Of a stretch of DNA of 39,804 nucleotides, positions 1,363-31,901 are shown piece by piece. The stretch comes from Candidatus Parcubacteria bacterium (lineage in GTDB: Bacteria > Patescibacteriota > Minisyncoccia > Minisyncoccales > JAGMDC01), in the NCBI GenBank assembly GCA_023128895.1, contig JAGMDC010000010.1:1-39804 (forward strand), given 5' to 3'. The stretch's first letter is position 1, and each line of letters opens with the position of its first letter. A program made the position numbers and the translations under genes. The notes under the pieces are model-generated. The model saw only the letters and a program-made list of their open reading frames with translations. It did not search any database and had not been told where the DNA came from.

Positions 1363-2799
1363 ATGTCAACAAAAAAGAAAAAATTTTATATCACGACACC
1401 TATTTATTATGTAAACGACCAACCGCACATTGGGCATTCTTATACTACTATCGCGGCTGATGTCTTAGCCCGCTATCGCCGTATTCAAAAAGATAAAGTA
1501 TTTTTTTCAGTCGGAGTTGATGAACACGGCGCTAAAATTGAAGAGGCGGCAGAAAAGAAAGGTAAAACGCCGAAACAATTATGCGACGAAAATTCAAAAA
1601 TCTTTGAAAAAATATGGCAGGATTTGAATATCTCTTATGATAATTTTATAAGAACCACTGATCCTTATCATAAAAAAATAGTCCAGAAAGTTTTGAAAAT
1701 TCTGTATAATCAGGGAATTATTTATAAAGGAATTTATGAAGGGCTTTATTGCGTGGGATGCGAGCAATACAAAACTAAAAGCGATTTGGTAAATGGCAAA
1801 TGCCCGGAGCATCAAACCAAGCCAATGGTTGTTAAAGAGGAAAATTATATTTTTAAACTTTCTCAATTTGAAAATATCTTAAGAGAAAAGATAGAAAAAG
1901 ATGAATTTGAGATAAGACCTAAGGAAAGAAAAAAAGAAGTTTTACAATTTTTAAAAAATGGGCTTCAAGATATTTCTATTTCTCGCCAAAGAGTAAAATG
2001 GGGGGTTGTTTTGCCTTTTGATAAAGCGCATACAGCTTATGTCTGGGTGGACGCATTTCTGAATTATCTCACTGTGATTGGCTGGGATGGGAACGCTAAA
2101 AAATTTCCTAAATTTTGGCCGCCAGATTTACAATTAATGTCAAAAGATATTTTAAGGGTTCACGCAACTATTTGGCCCGCTTTGCTTTTGGCTTTAAATA
2201 TACCATTGCCTAAAAAATTATTTGTTCACGGTTATTTCACGATTGATACACAAAAAATGAGCAAAACAATTGGCAATGTTATTTGGCCAAACGAAATGAT
2301 AGAAAAGTTTGGTGTGGATGGAACTCGCTATTTACTGCTTTCTGCCTGCCCTTTTGGCAGAGACGGAGATATTTCTCGGGAAAAATTATTAGAAAAATAT
2401 AACGCGGATTTGGCAAAAGGGCTGGGAAACTTAACGGCAAGAGTAATAACTCTTACTGCGAAAAACCCGCCAGCCCGCAGTAGATACAGCGTTTCTGGCG
2501 GGAAAGTAAATAAGGAAATTAAAAAAATTCAGAAGAACTATAAACAAGCAATGGATGAATTTAAGTTAAATTCCGCGTTGGAGGAAATTTGGAAACTAAT
2601 TGGGTTTTGCGATAGATATATTGAAAAAGAAAAGCCCTGGGAGCAAAAAGATAATCAATTATCAGTGATAAACGATTTGTTAATTGCCTTGTCTAATATC
2701 GCGGAGATGCTTGAACCGTTTTTGCCGGAAACCTCGGAAAAAATTTTGAAACAGATAAAATCAAAATCTAAAGGCAAACCGTTGTTCCCACGTATTTAA
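1363..2799 (+). CDS. metG: Methionyl-tRNA synthetase
   Basis: Class I aminoacyl-tRNA synthetase charging tRNA-Met in the cytoplasm. The 478-residue protein has the HIGH signature at residues 22-25 in the context YYVNDQPHIGHSY, a zinc-knuckle-like CVGC...CPEH set in the CP insertion (about residues 129-149), the AYVWVDAFLNYL stretch, and KMSKT at about residue 300. A helical anticodon-binding domain follows. There is no C-terminal EMAP/Trbp111 domain, so this is the short form. The ATG start gives the expected MetRS N-terminus directly. An oddity is a palindromic insert at the start of the anticodon-binding region (encoding PPARSRYSVSGG). TatD follows within about 50 bases, as in many bacteria where metG and tatD are adjacent. 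Confidence 0.97.
   Translation: MSTKKKKFYITTPIYYVNDQPHIGHSYTTIAADVLARYRRIQKDKVFFSVGVDEHGAKIEEAAEKKGKTPKQLCDENSKIFEKIWQDLNISYDNFIRTTDPYHKKIVQKVLKILYNQGIIYKGIYEGLYCVGCEQYKTKSDLVNGKCPEHQTKPMVVKEENYIFKLSQFENILREKIEKDEFEIRPKERKKEVLQFLKNGLQDISISRQRVKWGVVLPFDKAHTAYVWVDAFLNYLTVIGWDGNAKKFPKFWPPDLQLMSKDILRVHATIWPALLLALNIPLPKKLFVHGYFTIDTQKMSKTIGNVIWPNEMIEKFGVDGTRYLLLSACPFGRDGDISREKLLEKYNADLAKGLGNLTARVITLTAKNPPARSRYSVSGGKVNKEIKKIQKNYKQAMDEFKLNSALEEIWKLIGFCDRYIEKEKPWEQKDNQLSVINDLLIALSNIAEMLEPFLPETSEKILKQIKSKSKGKPLFPRI
2466..2502 (+). repeat. In-frame palindromic insert in metG
   Basis: CCCGCCAG at 2466-2473 is exactly complementary to CTGGCGGG at 2495-2502, with 21 bases between. It is G/C-rich against an A/T-rich gene and reads through in frame at the junction between the catalytic core and the anticodon-binding helices. 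The CCCGCCAG word recurs in the palindrome inside tatD. Confidence 0.7.
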
Positions 2800-2801
2800 G
2801 T

Positions 2802-2851
2802 TGAGCGAGGCAACGAAGTTCATTCGCTCACCTTTATATTCACCTTTATAT
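2802..2851 (+). repeat. Hairpin plus 12-base tandem duplication before tatD
   Basis: TGAGCGA at 2802-2808 pairs with TCGCTCA at 2824-2830; the word TCACCTTTATAT is then repeated twice in tandem (2828-2839 and 2840-2851) and the second copy ends exactly at the tatD ATG. The hairpin core shares GCGAGGCAACGAAG with the large palindrome at 15294-15458. Confidence 0.7.
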
Positions 2852-3715
2852 ATGTTATTTGACACACACGCACATCTTAATTTTCCGGAGTTTGAAAAAG
2901 ATTTTGAGAAAGTGATTGACAGATGCCAAGAGAATAATGTTTGGCTCATAAATGTAGGGGTGGACTATGAGACCTCAAAAATAGCGGTTGAAATTGCTGA
3001 AAATTATGACAAAGGGGTTTTTGCGGCAATTGGACAGCATCCTTCTGAAGCAAATGAGAATTTGGATTTTAAGAAATATAAAAATCTTGCTGAAAGTTCT
3101 GAAAAAGTTGTTGCCATAGGCGAAATAGGATTGGATTACAAATACAAGCCAAAACACGAAAAGGAATTTGAGGTTTTTAAACAAAAGCAAAAAGAATTGG
3201 TTTTAGAACAAATAAAATTGGCGCAGGAATTGGGCTTGCCTGTCATTTTTCACTGCCGAATGGCGCATAAAGATCTGACAAATATTCTTGAGTTACAAGT
3301 TACAGGTTACAAGTTACAGGCCGTAATTCATAGTTTTACCGGGACATTGGAGGAAGCAGAGAAATATTTGGCTCTTGGGTTTTATTTAGGGTTTAATGGA
3401 ATTATTTTTAGGGAAATTAAGGGAATATTATTTGAGGAAATTATCAAGAAAACTCCAATAAACAGGATTTTAGTTGAAACTGATTGTCCGTTTTTAACCC
3501 CGCCCGCAACGCTTCGCCCGCCAGCAACGCTTCGCGTAGCGATGCGGGCTGGCGTAGCGATGCGGGCGGGCCCGCCGCAGGAAAATAATAAAAGGAACGA
3601 ACCAATGTTTGTGAGGCATATTGTTCAAAAAATTGCGGAAATTAAGGGTTTATCGTTTGATGAAACAGCGGAAAATACTTTTGAAAACGCGCGAAAATTG
3701 TTTAGAATTTTTTGA
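2852..3715 (+). CDS. tatD: TatD family metal-dependent hydrolase (DNase)
   Basis: TIM-barrel metallohydrolase of the TatD family, a cytoplasmic Mg-dependent 3'-5' nuclease class. Visible ligands: DTHAHL at residues 4-9, GEIGLDY at about residue 90, the HC dyad in PVIFHCR, HSFTGT, and the terminal VETDCPFLTP (D of ETD is a metal ligand) followed by RNEP. I take the ATG at 2852 because MLFDTHAHL is the canonical family N-terminus; an open frame extends upstream to 2801 only through repeat sequence. The 287-residue protein is longer than usual because of two repeat-derived inserts: about ten residues from a heptamer array before the AVIHSF strand, and 24 residues from a palindrome between TP and the RNEP motif. 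Both fall in surface loops, so the enzyme is probably functional. Confidence 0.95.
   Translation: MLFDTHAHLNFPEFEKDFEKVIDRCQENNVWLINVGVDYETSKIAVEIAENYDKGVFAAIGQHPSEANENLDFKKYKNLAESSEKVVAIGEIGLDYKYKPKHEKEFEVFKQKQKELVLEQIKLAQELGLPVIFHCRMAHKDLTNILELQVTGYKLQAVIHSFTGTLEEAEKYLALGFYLGFNGIIFREIKGILFEEIIKKTPINRILVETDCPFLTPPATLRPPATLRVAMRAGVAMRAGPPQENNKRNEPMFVRHIVQKIAEIKGLSFDETAENTFENARKLFRIF
3292..3319 (+). repeat. Heptanucleotide array (GTTACAR)x4 in tatD
   Basis: Four consecutive 7-base units alternating GTTACAA and GTTACAG, translated as part of LELQVTGYKLQ. Since 7 is not a multiple of 3, gain or loss of one unit would shift the frame. Confidence 0.9.
3499..3570 (+). repeat. 72-base in-frame palindrome in tatD
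   Basis: A near-perfect palindrome centred between 3534 and 3535, with 30 of 36 positions complementary. Each arm is itself a tandem pair of an 18-base unit (CCCGCCCGCAACGCTTCG type on the left, CGTAGCGATGCGGGCKGG on the right), so the same unit is present four times, two direct and two inverted. It adds exactly 24 codons (PATLRP/AMRAGV repeats) without disrupting the frame. Flanking sequence is typical A/T-rich coding DNA. Confidence 0.92.
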
Positions 3716-16605: not shown

Positions 16606-17559
16606 ATGAGAAAAGCGATAATTTTATTTTCCGGCGGACTGGATTCAATTTTATGCGCGAAAATTCTGCAGGAAACACCTGCCTACGCGCAGGCAGGAAA
16701 AACGAAACTCTTAGGAATTTTTTTCAAGAGTTATTTTTTTAATTCAGAACAAGCGATAACTGCGGCTAAATTAGTGAAACTGCCATTAAAAGTTATTGAT
16801 TTTTCTGAAGAGCAGTTAAAAATAACAAAAAATCCCAAACACGGATATGGAAAAAATATGAACCCCTGCATTGACTGCCGCATTTTAATGTTCAAAAAAG
16901 CAAAAGAAATAATGAAAAAGCAGGGTTTTGATTTTATTGTTACTGGCGAGGTTTTAGGAGAAAGGCCTATGTCGCAGAATAAGCGAGCAATGGAATTGAT
17001 AGAAAAAGAATCTAAATTAAAGGGATATATTTTAAGGCCTTTGTGCGCAAAATTGTTGGAGCCTGCTATACCGGAGAAAATAGGATGGATAAATAGGGAA
17101 AAAATGTTTGACATCCGCGGTAGGTCTCGGAAAAAACAAATTGAAATGGCAAAAAAATACAAAATTAAAAAATATCCCAGTCCATCTGGCGGCTGCCTTT
17201 TAACAGACCCGGAATTCAGCAAGCGGCTGAAGAAATTATTTCAAATTTGCGCAAAATGCAAGAATAGCGATATTGAGTTATTAAAAATAGGCAGACATTT
17301 TTGGGAAAATAAAGTAAAAATAATAGTTGGACGCAATTATAACGAGAACAAACAAATTAAAAAATTAGCGCGAAAAGCAGATATTTTAATTGAGATGAAA
17401 AATTATACAGGGCCCTTGACTTTGGTCAGAAATTACAGCAAATCAAAAGTTAAAAAAACAATCATTGAAAAAGCGCAAAATTTAACCCAATTTTATTCAT
17501 TAAAAGCGCGCGGTAAAAGAGACGCGCAATTCAAGATTGCCCAAAGTAAACGAAAATAG
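16606..17559 (+). CDS. PP-loop ATPase, ThiI/MnmA-like tRNA thiolation-type enzyme
   Basis: Adenylating enzyme with the PP-loop SGGLDS at residues 9-14. It has CIDCRILMF and a later GGCLLTDP, giving the conserved Cys expected for persulfide-based sulfur transfer, plus FIVTGEVLGERPMSQNKRAM. The C-terminal 80 residues (GRNYNENKQIKKLA and ILIEMKNYTGPLTLVRN) look like the NFACT-R type RNA-binding domain that accompanies this branch of ThiI-like proteins. There is no THUMP domain, so it is not classical ThiI. The reaction is probably tRNA uridine thiolation, but the position modified is unknown. A short palindrome-derived insert (TPAYAQAGKT) lies right after the first helix of the PP-loop domain. 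Confidence 0.85.
   Translation: MRKAIILFSGGLDSILCAKILQETPAYAQAGKTKLLGIFFKSYFFNSEQAITAAKLVKLPLKVIDFSEEQLKITKNPKHGYGKNMNPCIDCRILMFKKAKEIMKKQGFDFIVTGEVLGERPMSQNKRAMELIEKESKLKGYILRPLCAKLLEPAIPEKIGWINREKMFDIRGRSRKKQIEMAKKYKIKKYPSPSGGCLLTDPEFSKRLKKLFQICAKCKNSDIELLKIGRHFWENKVKIIVGRNYNENKQIKKLARKADILIEMKNYTGPLTLVRNYSKSKVKKTIIEKAQNLTQFYSLKARGKRDAQFKIAQSKRK
16678..16697 (+). repeat. In-frame palindromic insert in the PP-loop gene
   Basis: CCTGCCT (16678-16684), loop ACGCGC, AGGCAGG (16691-16697): perfect arms, G/C-rich, in frame between the PP-loop helix and the next beta strand. Family proteins normally run straight from LLQ to the next strand here. Confidence 0.65.
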
Positions 17560-25082: not shown

Positions 25083-25727
25083 ATGTCGCCTATTCAAACA
25101 AAAGTATTCCGGCACGAACAGGAGTACTTTTTCAAATTCCATAGTTCTAAATTAAATGCTTTGTCAAAAAATGAGCCGCGCTTGCGGGAGTATTTGCTTG
25201 AAATTTATGACAACTGCCCTGATGAATTTTTCTCGCAGAGTTTGAGGTGCTCGCAGACAAAATTAAAAAATGTGGAATTAAGAAAGCGCCCCAAGAACAA
25301 TGGCGCTATTGCGCAGGCAAAATCAGCTCTTTGCGATATAAAAAACAACAGAATGAGGCATCCTGCTGTTCAGGATTTTATGCTTCTAAATGACGAGGCA
25401 ACAATTGCGTGTGAAGTGCCGGTATATCTCGCCCCGTGGGAAGTTCCCGGGATGGATAGGCCTTTGTCAGGGCATATAGATATTTTGCAGTTTAGAGGGG
25501 ACAAAGTGTGGATTTTGGATTATAAGCCAAACGCGCGCTATAATATTCAGGCGTATATGACCCAGGTGTTTCTTTACGGAATTTGTTTGAGCAGGAGAAC
25601 TAAAATTCCTATGGAACAAATTGGTTTGGCGTATTTTGACGATAAAGATTATTTTGAAGTGAAGCGAGAGAAGCCCGAACAAGATTTCTTGTTCGGGCTT
25701 CCGAGCGAACGCAGAAAATGCGCTTAA
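25083..25727 (+). CDS. PD-(D/E)XK superfamily nuclease (RecB/Cas4-like fold)
   Basis: A 214-residue protein with the nuclease core motifs: Glu111 in CEVPVYL, Asp133 in SGHIDILQ, Asp146-x-Lys148 in WILDYKPN, and the Gln-rich helix QAYMTQVFLYG. This is the arrangement of RecB-type exonuclease domains (PDDEXK_1). It lacks the four-Cys iron-sulfur cluster of Cas4 and there is no CRISPR array nearby. Metal-dependent DNA cleavage is expected; role unknown, though a 5'-3' exonuclease gene follows within 55 bases. The last 20 codons are formed by a perfect palindrome. Confidence 0.85.
   Translation: MSPIQTKVFRHEQEYFFKFHSSKLNALSKNEPRLREYLLEIYDNCPDEFFSQSLRCSQTKLKNVELRKRPKNNGAIAQAKSALCDIKNNRMRHPAVQDFMLLNDEATIACEVPVYLAPWEVPGMDRPLSGHIDILQFRGDKVWILDYKPNARYNIQAYMTQVFLYGICLSRRTKIPMEQIGLAYFDDKDYFEVKREKPEQDFLFGLPSERRKCA
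25670..25701 (+). repeat. Perfect palindrome at the nuclease gene's 3' end
   Basis: GAAGCCCGAACAAG (25670-25683), loop ATTT, CTTGTTCGGGCTTC (25688-25701): 14 perfect pairs, still inside the coding frame, 24 bases before the stop codon. Either a coding-sequence insert or a 3' mRNA hairpin. Confidence 0.9.
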
Positions 25728-28403: not shown

Positions 28404-28480
28404 AAATTATTGCGGCTACGCCGCATAATTACTCGTTCGGAATAAATACAAAAATGAATTTTTGTGTTTATTCTTCACCC
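28404..28480 (-). repeat. Dispersed two-hairpin extragenic repeat, copy B (inverted)
   Basis: Same two hairpins as copies A and C in reverse orientation: TGCGGC-TAC-GCCGCA (28411-28425) and a long A/T stem, 28441-28455 with 28458-28472 (14 of 15 pairs). The 15-base A/T stem is the best preserved of the three copies. It separates the kinase and response regulator genes. Confidence 0.85.
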
Positions 28481-28486
28481 ATAATT

Positions 28487-28852
28487 ATGGTTAAAATATT
28501 AATCATTGAGGACGATAAATTCCTTAGGGAGTTAATCTCTCAAAAACTTGTTAAAGAGGGTTATGAGATTTGCGAAGCAATTGACGGCGAAGAAGGAATA
28601 AAACAGGTTAGGAAAGAAAATCCTGATTTGATTTTGCTTGATTTAATTTTACCCGGGATAGACGGATTTGATGTCTTGGCTCAAATGAAAAGAGACCCGG
28701 TTCTCGCAAAAATTCCAGTAATTATTCTGTCTAATTTAGGGCAAAAAGAAGACATAGAAAAAGGCATTAATTTAGGAGCGGATGATTATTTGATTAAGGC
28801 GCATTTTACGCCCAATGAGATAATTGAGAAAATAAAGAGCGTATTGAAGTGA
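28487..28852 (+). CDS. Single-domain response regulator (CheY-like receiver)
   Basis: A 121-residue stand-alone receiver. Acidic pocket EDD at residues 8-10, phosphoacceptor Asp52 in LILLDLILPGIDGFD, Ser at ILSNLGQ and the invariant Lys in YLIKAHF. No output domain, so it acts through protein contact. The open frame extends upstream to 28322, but that part covers the kinase 3' end and the extragenic repeat; the ATG at 28487 gives the normal MVKILIIEDD N-terminus. The preceding histidine kinase is the probable phosphodonor. holA starts seven bases after the stop. Confidence 0.95.
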   Translation: MVKILIIEDDKFLRELISQKLVKEGYEICEAIDGEEGIKQVRKENPDLILLDLILPGIDGFDVLAQMKRDPVLAKIPVIILSNLGQKEDIEKGINLGADDYLIKAHFTPNEIIEKIKSVLK

Positions 28853-28859
28853 GGAATTT

Positions 28860-29816
28860 ATGTTTATTTTTTTATACGGCGAGGATACATTTAGATCTCT
28901 GCAAAAATTGCGCGAAATTGTTGACGAGTATAAAAAAATCCATATAACAGGATTAAATTTAATATATTTTGATTGCCAGAATGTTGAATTCACAGAATTT
29001 GAAAATGCTGTCCAAAGCGTTTCAATGTTTCAGGAGAAAAAACTGATTATACTAAGGAACGCTTTTTTTAATACTGATTTTAAGGAAAAATTTTTGAAAT
29101 GGGCCTCTGAACCACGTGGGGTTCAGAGCAAGCAATCCTTTGAAAACATTATCGTATTTTACGAAAATCAAGCAATGAAAAAGACAGACTCTTTGTTTAA
29201 ATTTTTGAAAACAAAGGCAAAATTGCAGGAATTTAATTTTTTAACAGGCAGGAAATTACAGGACTGGGTTAACAAAGAATTTGAAGAATACGGGACAAAA
29301 ATTGAATTTGGAGCAAGAGAGTGTTTGATTAATTTTGTAGGTAAAGATCTCTGGCAAATGTCCCAGGAAATTAAAAAATTATGCGCCTACAAAAAAACTG
29401 ATAAGATTGTCAAGATAGAAGACGTGGAACTTTTGGTAATTCCCAAAATTGAAACAGATATTTTTAAGACCATTGATGCTATCGGCTTGAACAATAAAAA
29501 ACTCGCGCTTTTTCTTTTACGCAAGCATTTGGCAAAAGGTGACTCCCCCTTATATTTGCTTTCTATGATAAATTTTCAGTTCAGAAATTTGCTTTCTGTT
29601 AAGGATTTTATGGAAAAACAAGGCAATACTTATGGCAGAGTAAAGATTCCGGGAATGCATCCCTATGTTGCGCAAAAAAGTTGTTATCAGGCGCGACAAT
29701 TTGGGCTTGAGAAATTAAAAAAAATCTATCAAAAATTGCTTTTGACAGACATGGAAATTAAAACAGGTAAAATTGACGCGCGAATGGCGCTGGATATGCT
29801 GATAATTGGAATATAA
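28860..29816 (+). CDS. holA: DNA polymerase III delta subunit
   Basis: Clamp-loader subunit that opens the sliding clamp. The 318 residues have the HolA pattern: N-terminal FIFLYGEDTFRSLQKL, KKLIILRNAFF, FENIIVFYENQAMKK, and a C-terminal collar domain (DIFKTIDAIGLNNKKLALFLLRKHL ... KIDARMALDMLI). As usual for delta it has an AAA+ fold without a functional P-loop. An eight-codon palindromic insert (SEPRGVQS) interrupts the loop before ENIIVFYE. It converges with rpsT, two bases away. Confidence 0.92.
   Translation: MFIFLYGEDTFRSLQKLREIVDEYKKIHITGLNLIYFDCQNVEFTEFENAVQSVSMFQEKKLIILRNAFFNTDFKEKFLKWASEPRGVQSKQSFENIIVFYENQAMKKTDSLFKFLKTKAKLQEFNFLTGRKLQDWVNKEFEEYGTKIEFGARECLINFVGKDLWQMSQEIKKLCAYKKTDKIVKIEDVELLVIPKIETDIFKTIDAIGLNNKKLALFLLRKHLAKGDSPLYLLSMINFQFRNLLSVKDFMEKQGNTYGRVKIPGMHPYVAQKSCYQARQFGLEKLKKIYQKLLLTDMEIKTGKIDARMALDMLIIGI
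29105..29128 (+). repeat. In-frame palindromic insert in holA
   Basis: CTCTGAACC (29105-29113), loop ACGTGG, GGTTCAGAG (29120-29128): nine perfect pairs, 24 bases, exactly eight codons, placed in a surface loop between two strands of the AAA+ domain. Confidence 0.8.
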
Positions 29817-30126: not shown

Positions 30127-30135
30127 TGGTATAAT
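30127..30135 (+). promoter_or_regulatory. Extended -10 promoter before the second LamG-pilin
   Basis: TGGTATAAT at 30127-30135, an extended -10 element with no clear -35. Transcription from near 30143 would carry the whole tandem hairpin array in a leader of about 210 bases. Confidence 0.55.
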
Positions 30136-30137
30136 TA

Positions 30138-30318
30138 GGAGCGAGGGAGGAATACAAAAATTCATTTTTGTATTTCAACCGAGCGAGTAATTATGCGGCG
30201 AAGCCGCAATAATTTAGGAGTGATTTCAACCGAGCGAGTAATTATGCGGCGAAGCCGCAATAATTTAGGAGTGATTTCAACCGAGCGAGTAATTATGCGG
30301 CTTTGCCGCAATAATAGA
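30138..30318 (+). repeat. Dispersed two-hairpin extragenic repeat, copy C, with 51-base tandem units
   Basis: Unit 1 (30138-30216) has both hairpins: AATACAAAAA-TTCA-TTTTTGTATT and TGCGGC-GAA-GCCGCA. Units 2 (30217-30267) and 3 (30268-30318) repeat a 51-base segment with only the G/C hairpin; units 1 and 2 share their last 44 bases, and unit 3 has a changed loop (TTT for GAA). There are no spacers of varying sequence, so this is not a CRISPR array. Confidence 0.92.
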
Positions 30319-31258: not shown

Positions 31259-31901
31259 TGCTTATTTACAAGGAAAAATTATTTTGAAAAAAGATTTGAA
31301 AAGGGAGAGGTTTGTGGTTATGAATGTAGGCGGGAAGGGCTACAAGGTTTTTTTATCTAAAAAAGTTTTTACTTCGCCCGCGATAGCTTTGGCGAAGGCG
31401 GGGGATGAATCTGAATCAAACGAAAGTATTGAGTTGTTTTGCTATCTTTATGTTAGGGAAAATATAATGGACTTATACGGGTTTTTGTCTTGGGAAGAGA
31501 GAGAGGTTTTTGAAATGTTAATCGGCATTTCCGGCGTGGGGCCAAAGGCGGCTTTGGAAATTTCAGGGCTGGGGCCATTGGAAAATTTGAAAAAATCCAT
31601 TGAGGCAGGCGATGGAAAAATTTTTGAGGGCATTCCCGGAATTGGCAGGAAAAGAGCGGGAAAGATTTTATTAGAGCTGTCCGGCAAAATTAGAGATTTT
31701 GGCGCGCCTGCGCGCCCCCACACCAATGGAATTGGTGTGGGGGGGCGCGCTAACGATGGGGCAGAAGAAGACCCATGCGTGGACGCGCTTGTAAATATGG
31801 GATTTTCCAAAACACAAGTTATACAAACTCTCGCGCAAATTCCAAAAGAAGAAATAAGCGAAGAGGAACGAATTAAACAAGCGCTGAAAATATTAAGATA
31901 A
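31254..31901 (+). CDS. ruvA: Holliday junction branch migration protein RuvA
   Basis: Tetrameric Holliday junction binder that loads RuvB. The 215 residues comprise the N-terminal OB fold (MIAYLQGKI ... YLYVRENIMDLYGF), two helix-hairpin-helix motifs (LIGISGVGPKAALEI and FEGIPGIGRKRAGKI), a linker and the RuvB-binding C-terminal domain (CVDALVNMGFSKTQVIQTL). It is longer than the usual 190-200 because of two repeat inserts, one in the OB-fold loop (PAIALAKAGDES) and one in the flexible linker (ARPHTNGIGVGGRAN). Both are in places that tolerate insertion. The start codon lies in a heptamer array. pilC follows five bases after the stop. Confidence 0.96.
   Translation: MIAYLQGKIILKKDLKRERFVVMNVGGKGYKVFLSKKVFTSPAIALAKAGDESESNESIELFCYLYVRENIMDLYGFLSWEEREVFEMLIGISGVGPKAALEISGLGPLENLKKSIEAGDGKIFEGIPGIGRKRAGKILLELSGKIRDFGAPARPHTNGIGVGGRANDGAEEDPCVDALVNMGFSKTQVIQTLAQIPKEEISEEERIKQALKILR
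31373..31401 (+). repeat. Palindromic insert in the ruvA OB-fold
   Basis: TTCGCC (31373-31378) pairs with GGCGAA (31391-31396), and the shifted CCCGC/GCGGG pairing (31377-31381 with 31397-31401) is an alternative. In frame, G/C-rich, in a loop between strands. Confidence 0.6.
31710..31750 (+). repeat. Palindromic insert in the ruvA domain II-III linker
   Basis: An 18-base arm (31710-31727, beginning GCGCGCCCCC and ending CACCAAT) is complementary to 31731-31750, which has two extra G; loop GGA. It encodes PHTNGIGVGGR inside the flexible linker, in frame. Confidence 0.9.

Follow-up and report, generated by a model that had tools for sequence, protein, structure and literature searches.

A 36-bp palindromic element nested in frame in a patescibacterial tatD gene and dispersed among Patescibacteria and the Verrucomicrobia group

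The window analysed here, i.e. the whole stretch of 39,804 nucleotides from a Candidatus Parcubacteria bacterium (contig JAGMDC010000010.1, assembly GCA_023128895.1), contains a gene for a TatD-family DNase that is interrupted in frame by a 72-bp palindrome. The features to which we refer below are the following:

2801..3715, + strand: tatD, the gene in which the insert lies, for a TatD-family metal-dependent DNase with intact motifs; start at 2801 (TTG) or 2852 (ATG)
3499..3570, + strand: 72-bp composite, one 36-bp element nested in another, adding 24 codons in frame
3499..3516, + strand: left half of the outer 36-bp element, CCCGCCCGCAACGCTTCG
3517..3552, + strand: inner 36-bp element, CCCGCCAGCAACGCTTCGCGTAGCGATGCGGGCTGG, A-T subtype at positions 7 and 34
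3553..3570, + strand: right half of the outer 36-bp element, CGTAGCGATGCGGGCGGG
2470..2502, + strand: in-frame insert in metG, 33 bp, a putative diverged relative with similar termini, CCAGCCCGCAGTAGATACAGCGTTTCTGGCGGG, read PARSRYSVSGG
31715-31743: insert in ruvA, an unrelated GC-rich palindrome
29105-29128: insert in holA, an unrelated GC-rich palindrome
about 16678-16697: insert in the PP-loop gene, an unrelated GC-rich palindrome
25670-25701: unrelated GC-rich palindrome in a nuclease-like ORF

The original prediction placed a 72-bp palindrome in frame in an otherwise intact tatD, and in this it is confirmed, both in its exact coordinates (3499-3570) and in the single ORF, 2801-3715, that runs through it. 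The ORF matches the Pfam family TatD_DNase (PF01026) over positions 1-253 of 253 (E 8e-73), and the motifs THAHL, GEIGLD, FHCR, IHSF and ETD are all found in its translation. The insert lies in the loop preceding the RNEP motif. The closest TatD relative searched (68% identical) reads DCPFLTPPQEGDKRNEP opposite DCPFLTP[24 aa]PPQENNKRNEP, and thus the insert comprises exactly 24 codons, as had been claimed, all of them missing from this relative. Aligning TatD relatives, much as had been proposed for sister genomes, shows a clean insertion: nearly all of them have an alignment gap at the same site, and the alignment to the best-matching solved TatD chains stops at residues 217-218 and resumes at 241-245. 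When the flanks are joined without the insert they read DCPFLTPPQENNKRNEP, for which the counterpart in Thermotoga 1j6o is DCPFLPPQPFRGKRNEP. A second small insert of near-tandem GTTACAAGTTACAG repeats, read LQVTGYKLQ, is found in tatD at about 3279-3318, and a similar GTTAC repeat is present in another locus (L070).

The two arms of the palindrome, 3499-3534 and 3535-3570, are 83% complementary and have no loop between them, and there are direct pairs at 3499/3517 and 3534/3552. The original prediction read this arrangement as four copies of an 18-base unit. Because sharp-ended single 36-mers are the common unit elsewhere, we read it instead as a 36-bp element (3517-3552) inserted at the point of dyad symmetry of another (18+36+18). 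Such a structure could have been produced by two insertions, the second into the centre of the first, or by a single insertion of a ready-made 72-bp nested unit.

The 36-bp unit has the consensus CCCGCCC-GCAACGCTTCG-CGTAGCGATGC-GGGCGGG. Among 132 aligned contexts, conservation begins and ends sharply at positions 1 and 36 while the flanks are near random, and the termini of the 132 aligned copies read CCYGC and GCX'GG. The unit therefore has fixed ends, and it is dispersed in unrelated loci of unrelated genomes. In the 0.74-Mb genome from which the window derives there are 13 cores at ≤2 mismatches; the genome search that had been suggested for further copies recovers the GCAACGCTTCG arm 13 times, and its reversed control not once. 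In the order, 21 of 247 genomes carry the 22-bp core (≤1 mismatch), and the reversed control has no match in any of the 247. A scan of GTDB found at least 116 stretches among the matches listed. Counting by record titles, the carriers among the GTDB matches listed include at least about 45 patescibacterial genomes (Moran-, Davies-, Giovannoni-, Nealson-, Staskawicz-, Portnoy-, Falkow-, Kuenen- and Nomura-bacteria, and others) and at least about 15 genomes of Verrucomicrobia, Lentisphaerae and Kiritimatiellia. Most carriers have 1-11 matches (≤2 mismatches), and the two highest have 20 and 65. The family had been ascribed to one lineage; identical copies in numerous Patescibacteria, and also in the Verrucomicrobia group, show that ascription to be too narrow. 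No match to the element was found in the plasmid sequences searched, and the viral contigs searched have matches in two contigs only.

At three loci, L264, L309 and L327, the element adjoins an apparent 3' tRNA fragment ending ATCGCGCAC. L309 and L327 come from soil bins of Verrucomicrobia; L264 is a contig labelled 'Acidobacteria', but its flanks are common to Verrucomicrobia contigs and it is probably mis-binned. Insertion in tRNA genes, suspected from the flanks of some copies, was rejected when ARAGORN and Rfam found no tRNA spanning the element at six suspect loci; a doubtful tRNA-Cys appears at L314, and only after joining the flanks.

The nested arrangement seen in tatD recurs. Units nested at the centre of others occur both in this genome and in further Patescibacteria, as well as in bins of Verrucomicrobia and Lentisphaerae (8 contexts were flagged in this survey, one of which, L024, is a tandem pair instead). 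In another genome (G042, locus L082), the element sits at the centre of a 33-bp palindrome that stands empty in the window's metG; the filled site, GTAGATA^CAGCGTTT, has exactly 36 bp added, bluntly. In the Lentisphaerae genome GWF2_57_35, which has the 65 matches (≤2 mismatches), most of those seen lie in loops formed by a repeat of the host itself. Palindrome tips thus serve repeatedly as targets of insertion. Inverted repeats flanking single copies were no more frequent than in shuffles. The inner copy in nested forms is usually of the A-T subtype, and so a ready-made 72-bp unit may move as a whole.

Is the unit, then, best described as a palindrome? Its internal mismatches, A.A and T.T, are kept in 124 and 127 of the 132 copies, respectively. 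When mutual information is computed for the 630 column pairs of the 76 unique 36-mers, none of the four strongest pairs (7-34, 3-30, 12-30 and 11-21) is a dyad pair. All four fit two hairpins offset by four bases, one formed by nt 5-36 of the top strand and the other, its mirror, by nt 1-32, which are nt 5-36 of the bottom strand. The composition of pair 7-34 is C-G in 45 of the unique 36-mers, A-T in 10 and T-A in 7, and that of pair 3-30 is C-G in 48, T-A in 11 and T-G in 9. The two offset hairpins have 840 and 850 paired cells, compared to shuffle maxima of 818 and 840, and the full palindrome has 944 compared to a shuffle mean of 951, i.e. no excess; since the copies are related, such shuffle tests overstate significance, but the A-T type and the T-A type are each represented at 17 loci, drawn from both host groups. 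DNA folding of the top-strand variants gives mostly the shifted hairpin: a 4-nt 5' tag, a 5-bp stem CCXGC/GCX'GG, an AA/G bulge, CGC/GCG, a T.T mismatch, TCGC/GCGA and a GTA loop. Three reverse complements were also folded: the top-type hairpin appears in mirror form in two of them, and the third adopts the tagged bottom-strand form. Thus, each strand can form a 32-nt hairpin after a 4-nt 5' tag (CCYG or CCXG), interrupted by an AA/G or AT/G bulge and a T.T mismatch and closed by a 3-nt loop. The hairpins of the two strands overlap and are mutually exclusive, and base pairs of both co-vary across copies. To call the unit a simple palindrome is misleading, and the covariation rejects that description.

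The genes that host the element were identified by Pfam or NCBIfam matches. In its own genome they encode TatD, an FtsZ-family protein, a UvrD-PDDEXK protein, GlyRS, PheT and MnmA (with two tandem copies). In other genomes the hosts are RF1 (two copies), TsaD, RNase J, RsmI, GatB, Jag/EloR, PheT, MurD and UvrB, and further hosts elsewhere are UvrB again, UvrA, IleRS, GltX, IOR alpha, LCP, Fpg, L21 and a Nudix protein. In-frame copies thus occur in more than 20 known protein families, in both orientations. At two loci from different families (L069 and L074, both rplU), the element occupies the same site of the L21 gene, with near-repeats AAAATTGA on both sides, which could reflect common ancestry, transfer or a hot spot. 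The pheT genes of this genome and of G042 (L016 and L087) carry it in a similar region, one in each orientation, a pattern that suggests a permissive loop hit independently in the two.

The inserts of the window had been predicted to form a single repeat family. For metG this stands to the extent that its insert, alone among the window's inserts that were resolved one by one, looks like a diverged relative of the tatD element, a resemblance we judge from sequence; the inserts of ruvA, holA and the PP-loop gene are other, unrelated GC-rich palindromes. In total, the window contains 9 GC-rich palindromes with perfect arms (≥8), compared to a mean of 1.4 in Markov sequences, and 6 of the 9 lie within long ORFs. 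The tatD element is one palindrome family among several. Several copies of a dispersed repeat rich in A+T, GAGCGAGGGAG..TACAAAAATTCATTTTTGTA..GCGGCGAAGCCGC, are also present in the window, partly tandem and in both orientations (2-76, 28404-28488 and 30131-30315).

The genome has two Y1_Tnp genes that are RAYT-like (L014 and L015; G000 C4:93403 and C3:119663). Both have their own palindrome inside the reading frame, and one is bracketed by its palindrome; the two palindromes occur at about 15 and about 10 sites genome-wide. They recur in frame in other genes, with YYENRSRSI/YYENGSRTI read in seven ORFs including the Y1 gene itself, and hence Y1-linked palindromes colonise coding sequence in this genome. 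Many Y1 genes of the order likewise have their own palindromes inside their reading frames. Y1_Tnp genes are found in 19 of the 21 carriers versus 113 of the 226 non-carriers of the order (p 2e-4), an enrichment that may reflect only the general load of mobile DNA; two carriers, G043 and G225, have no detected Y1 gene. None of the examined Y1 loci, in the order and in the GTDB carriers, has a Y1 gene flanked by the tatD-type element. One candidate for a cognate locus, L285, was rejected as the element there has inserted into the loop of a repeat that belongs to the host. ORF clustering near the copies found no recurrent neighbour genes beyond shared host genes and the reading frames of the Lentisphaerae host repeat.

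We infer movement from the distribution of the copies and from the empty sites. With a probability of roughly 0.7, the best explanation is that the tatD element is a non-autonomous, orphan REP-like palindromic mobile element of 36 bp that moves as a single strand with a Y1/HUH enzyme acting in trans. A single-strand transposase of the Y1/HUH class (RAYT/TnpAREP-like) would recognise the hairpin and move the element as ssDNA; because the Y1 association consists of enrichment, with no linked gene found, this step in trans is put forward conditionally. Insertions in permissive loops would then add 12 residues, mostly PARNASRSDAGG or PARIATRSVAGG, and be tolerated under selection, which they could survive because the unit is only 36 bp long and five of its six frames are open. 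It is apparently a minimal parasitic element, whose insert host proteins tolerate as a harmless surface loop. A fuller formulation combines these elements: a minimal single-strand mobile element of 36 bp, with two overlapping and exclusive REP-like hairpins, one per strand and both selected, that spreads between Patescibacteria and the Verrucomicrobia group without a linked transposase, repeatedly targets palindrome tips and is tolerated in frame in essential genes. This combination we advance tentatively, at somewhat less than even odds.

Alternatively, the unit could be a true palindromic element of the Rickettsia type (RPE, or CGTC-tagged REP), whose movement would depend on a non-HUH mechanism not yet known and perhaps extinct. 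The two share a life style, in frame in housekeeping and repair genes, and for neither has a dedicated transposase been found (PMC3733652). We consider this unlikely, however, as the CGTC end tag of R. conorii RPE-4/-6 is missing and the termini are CCYG and X'GG.

A MITE moved by a DDE transposase would also be palindromic and non-coding, and it should leave a target-site duplication. The flanks of the element show an excess of 2-bp repeats (24 versus 9.8), no excess at 3-6 bp, and a few cases of 7-9 bp. This pattern lends the possibility some weight, but no fixed duplication length is apparent, insertion at the L082/metG site is blunt, and a unit as short as 36 bp whose bulged hairpin is conserved internally is not what a MITE would lead us to expect; we regard this explanation as quite improbable.

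The hairpin is stable and some copies are intergenic, as would suit a structured RNA or a regulatory hairpin (a terminator, attenuator or protein-binding site) retained for host function. Yet copies lie in unrelated coding regions, in both orientations and in several frames, and covariation preserves a hairpin on both strands of the DNA, more than a role as RNA would demand, so that such a role is very improbable.

Selection could also act at the level of protein, if the 24 residues conferred a new function on TatD, and likewise on the other proteins. Among 66 spanning ORFs the PARNASRSDAGG frame is used in 36 and PARIATRSVAGG in 11, and the element is in phase 0 in 47, although the set includes some redundant and some possibly spurious loci and its p values are indicative. 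The excess of phase 0 and of the PARNASRSDAGG frame suggests purifying selection for a hydrophilic loop, and a tolerated loop of this kind accounts for the frame bias; unrelated proteins read this DNA in five different frames, and relatives lack the insert. Adaptation of the proteins is, in our view, highly improbable.

Finally, an artefact of assembly or binning, including the spread between phyla, is hardly credible: nearly all carrier genomes are metagenome-assembled and the 'Acidobacteria' contig is probably mis-binned, but the copies come from independent projects and long contigs (e.g. 667 kb), in surrounding loci with G+C from 0.29 to 0.66 and at differing insertion sites.

Selfish palindromes inserted in frame had been an oddity of Rickettsia and of a small number of REP-rich genomes. 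In the present case, several palindrome families with no relation to one another behave in this way in ultra-small genomes that are thought to be streamlined, and one of these families keeps an identical sequence in two phyla that are far apart. From the co-varying hairpins it can be predicted, in a form open to test, how orphan repeats are recognised. Each insert amounts to a natural experiment on how well a loop is tolerated by an essential protein, examples being release factor 1, tRNA synthetases, an FtsZ-family protein and ribosomal protein L21. Gene annotation and marker-gene alignments of Patescibacteria can also be misled by such inserts.

It is useful to compare the element with known systems. 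Di Nocera et al. (2013) described intragenic REPs, commonest in Opitutus terrae (GTAG) and Rickettsia conorii (CGTC, equivalent to RPE), whose targets include UvrA, UvrB, UvrD and tRNA synthetases; the CGTC REPs have no dedicated transposase (PMC3733652). The original prediction likened the tatD insert to the Rickettsia elements, and the likeness holds for the colonising of coding sequence in frame, with genes unbroken, but not for the CGTC end tag. RPEs (RPE-4/-6 of R. conorii being CGTC REPs) are likewise short palindromes in frame in genes that remain functional, with no linked transposase and with uvrB among their targets (PMC3733652). By the description of RPEs, the tatD element is set apart by its missing tag, a probably different sequence and its two overlapping hairpins; RPEs are found in one genus, whereas the tatD element is common to phyla, with hosts in Patescibacteria and relatives of Verrucomicrobia. 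It works like an RPE, but because the tag is missing we do not claim membership.

The GTAG REPs and their RAYTs (REPtrons, including the intragenic REPs of O. terrae) resemble the tatD element in length (20-40 bp), imperfect hairpin, AA-containing bulge, 5' tetranucleotide and intragenic copies; Y1 transposases are common in its carriers, and the two Y1 genes of its own genome have their own palindromes. The differences are the tag, CCYG/CCXG in place of a terminal GTAG/GTGG (within the unit, GTAG is found at positions 20-23 but not at the end), the presence of tagged hairpins on both strands of one 36-bp unit, and the lack of a flanked Y1 gene at the loci examined. The E. coli REP plan of 5' tetranucleotide, hairpin stem and AA-containing bulge (PMC8266576) is present once per strand. 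REPs have been described as species-specific (PMC6006769), whereas this sequence is identical across phyla.

Like the ends of IS200/IS605 elements and their palindrome-associated derivatives, the tatD element may combine a hairpin with adjacent short complementary blocks resembling guide/cleavage-site pairs, and a fixed target-site duplication is not apparent; the co-varying offset stems are compatible with such pairing, or may simply be the base of the hairpin. Unlike them, the tatD element is a single 36-bp hairpin unit, without left and right ends around a gene or a known target tetranucleotide. MITEs are similarly small, non-autonomous palindromic repeats, but the tatD element is much shorter, shows no clear target-site duplication of fixed length, and no parent insertion sequence was found. 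The open-licence literature yielded no description of such an element in Patescibacteria. The known precedents are intragenic REPs and Rickettsia RPEs, and what is new is the identity across phyla, the two-strand hairpin architecture, the nesting and the patescibacterial hosts.
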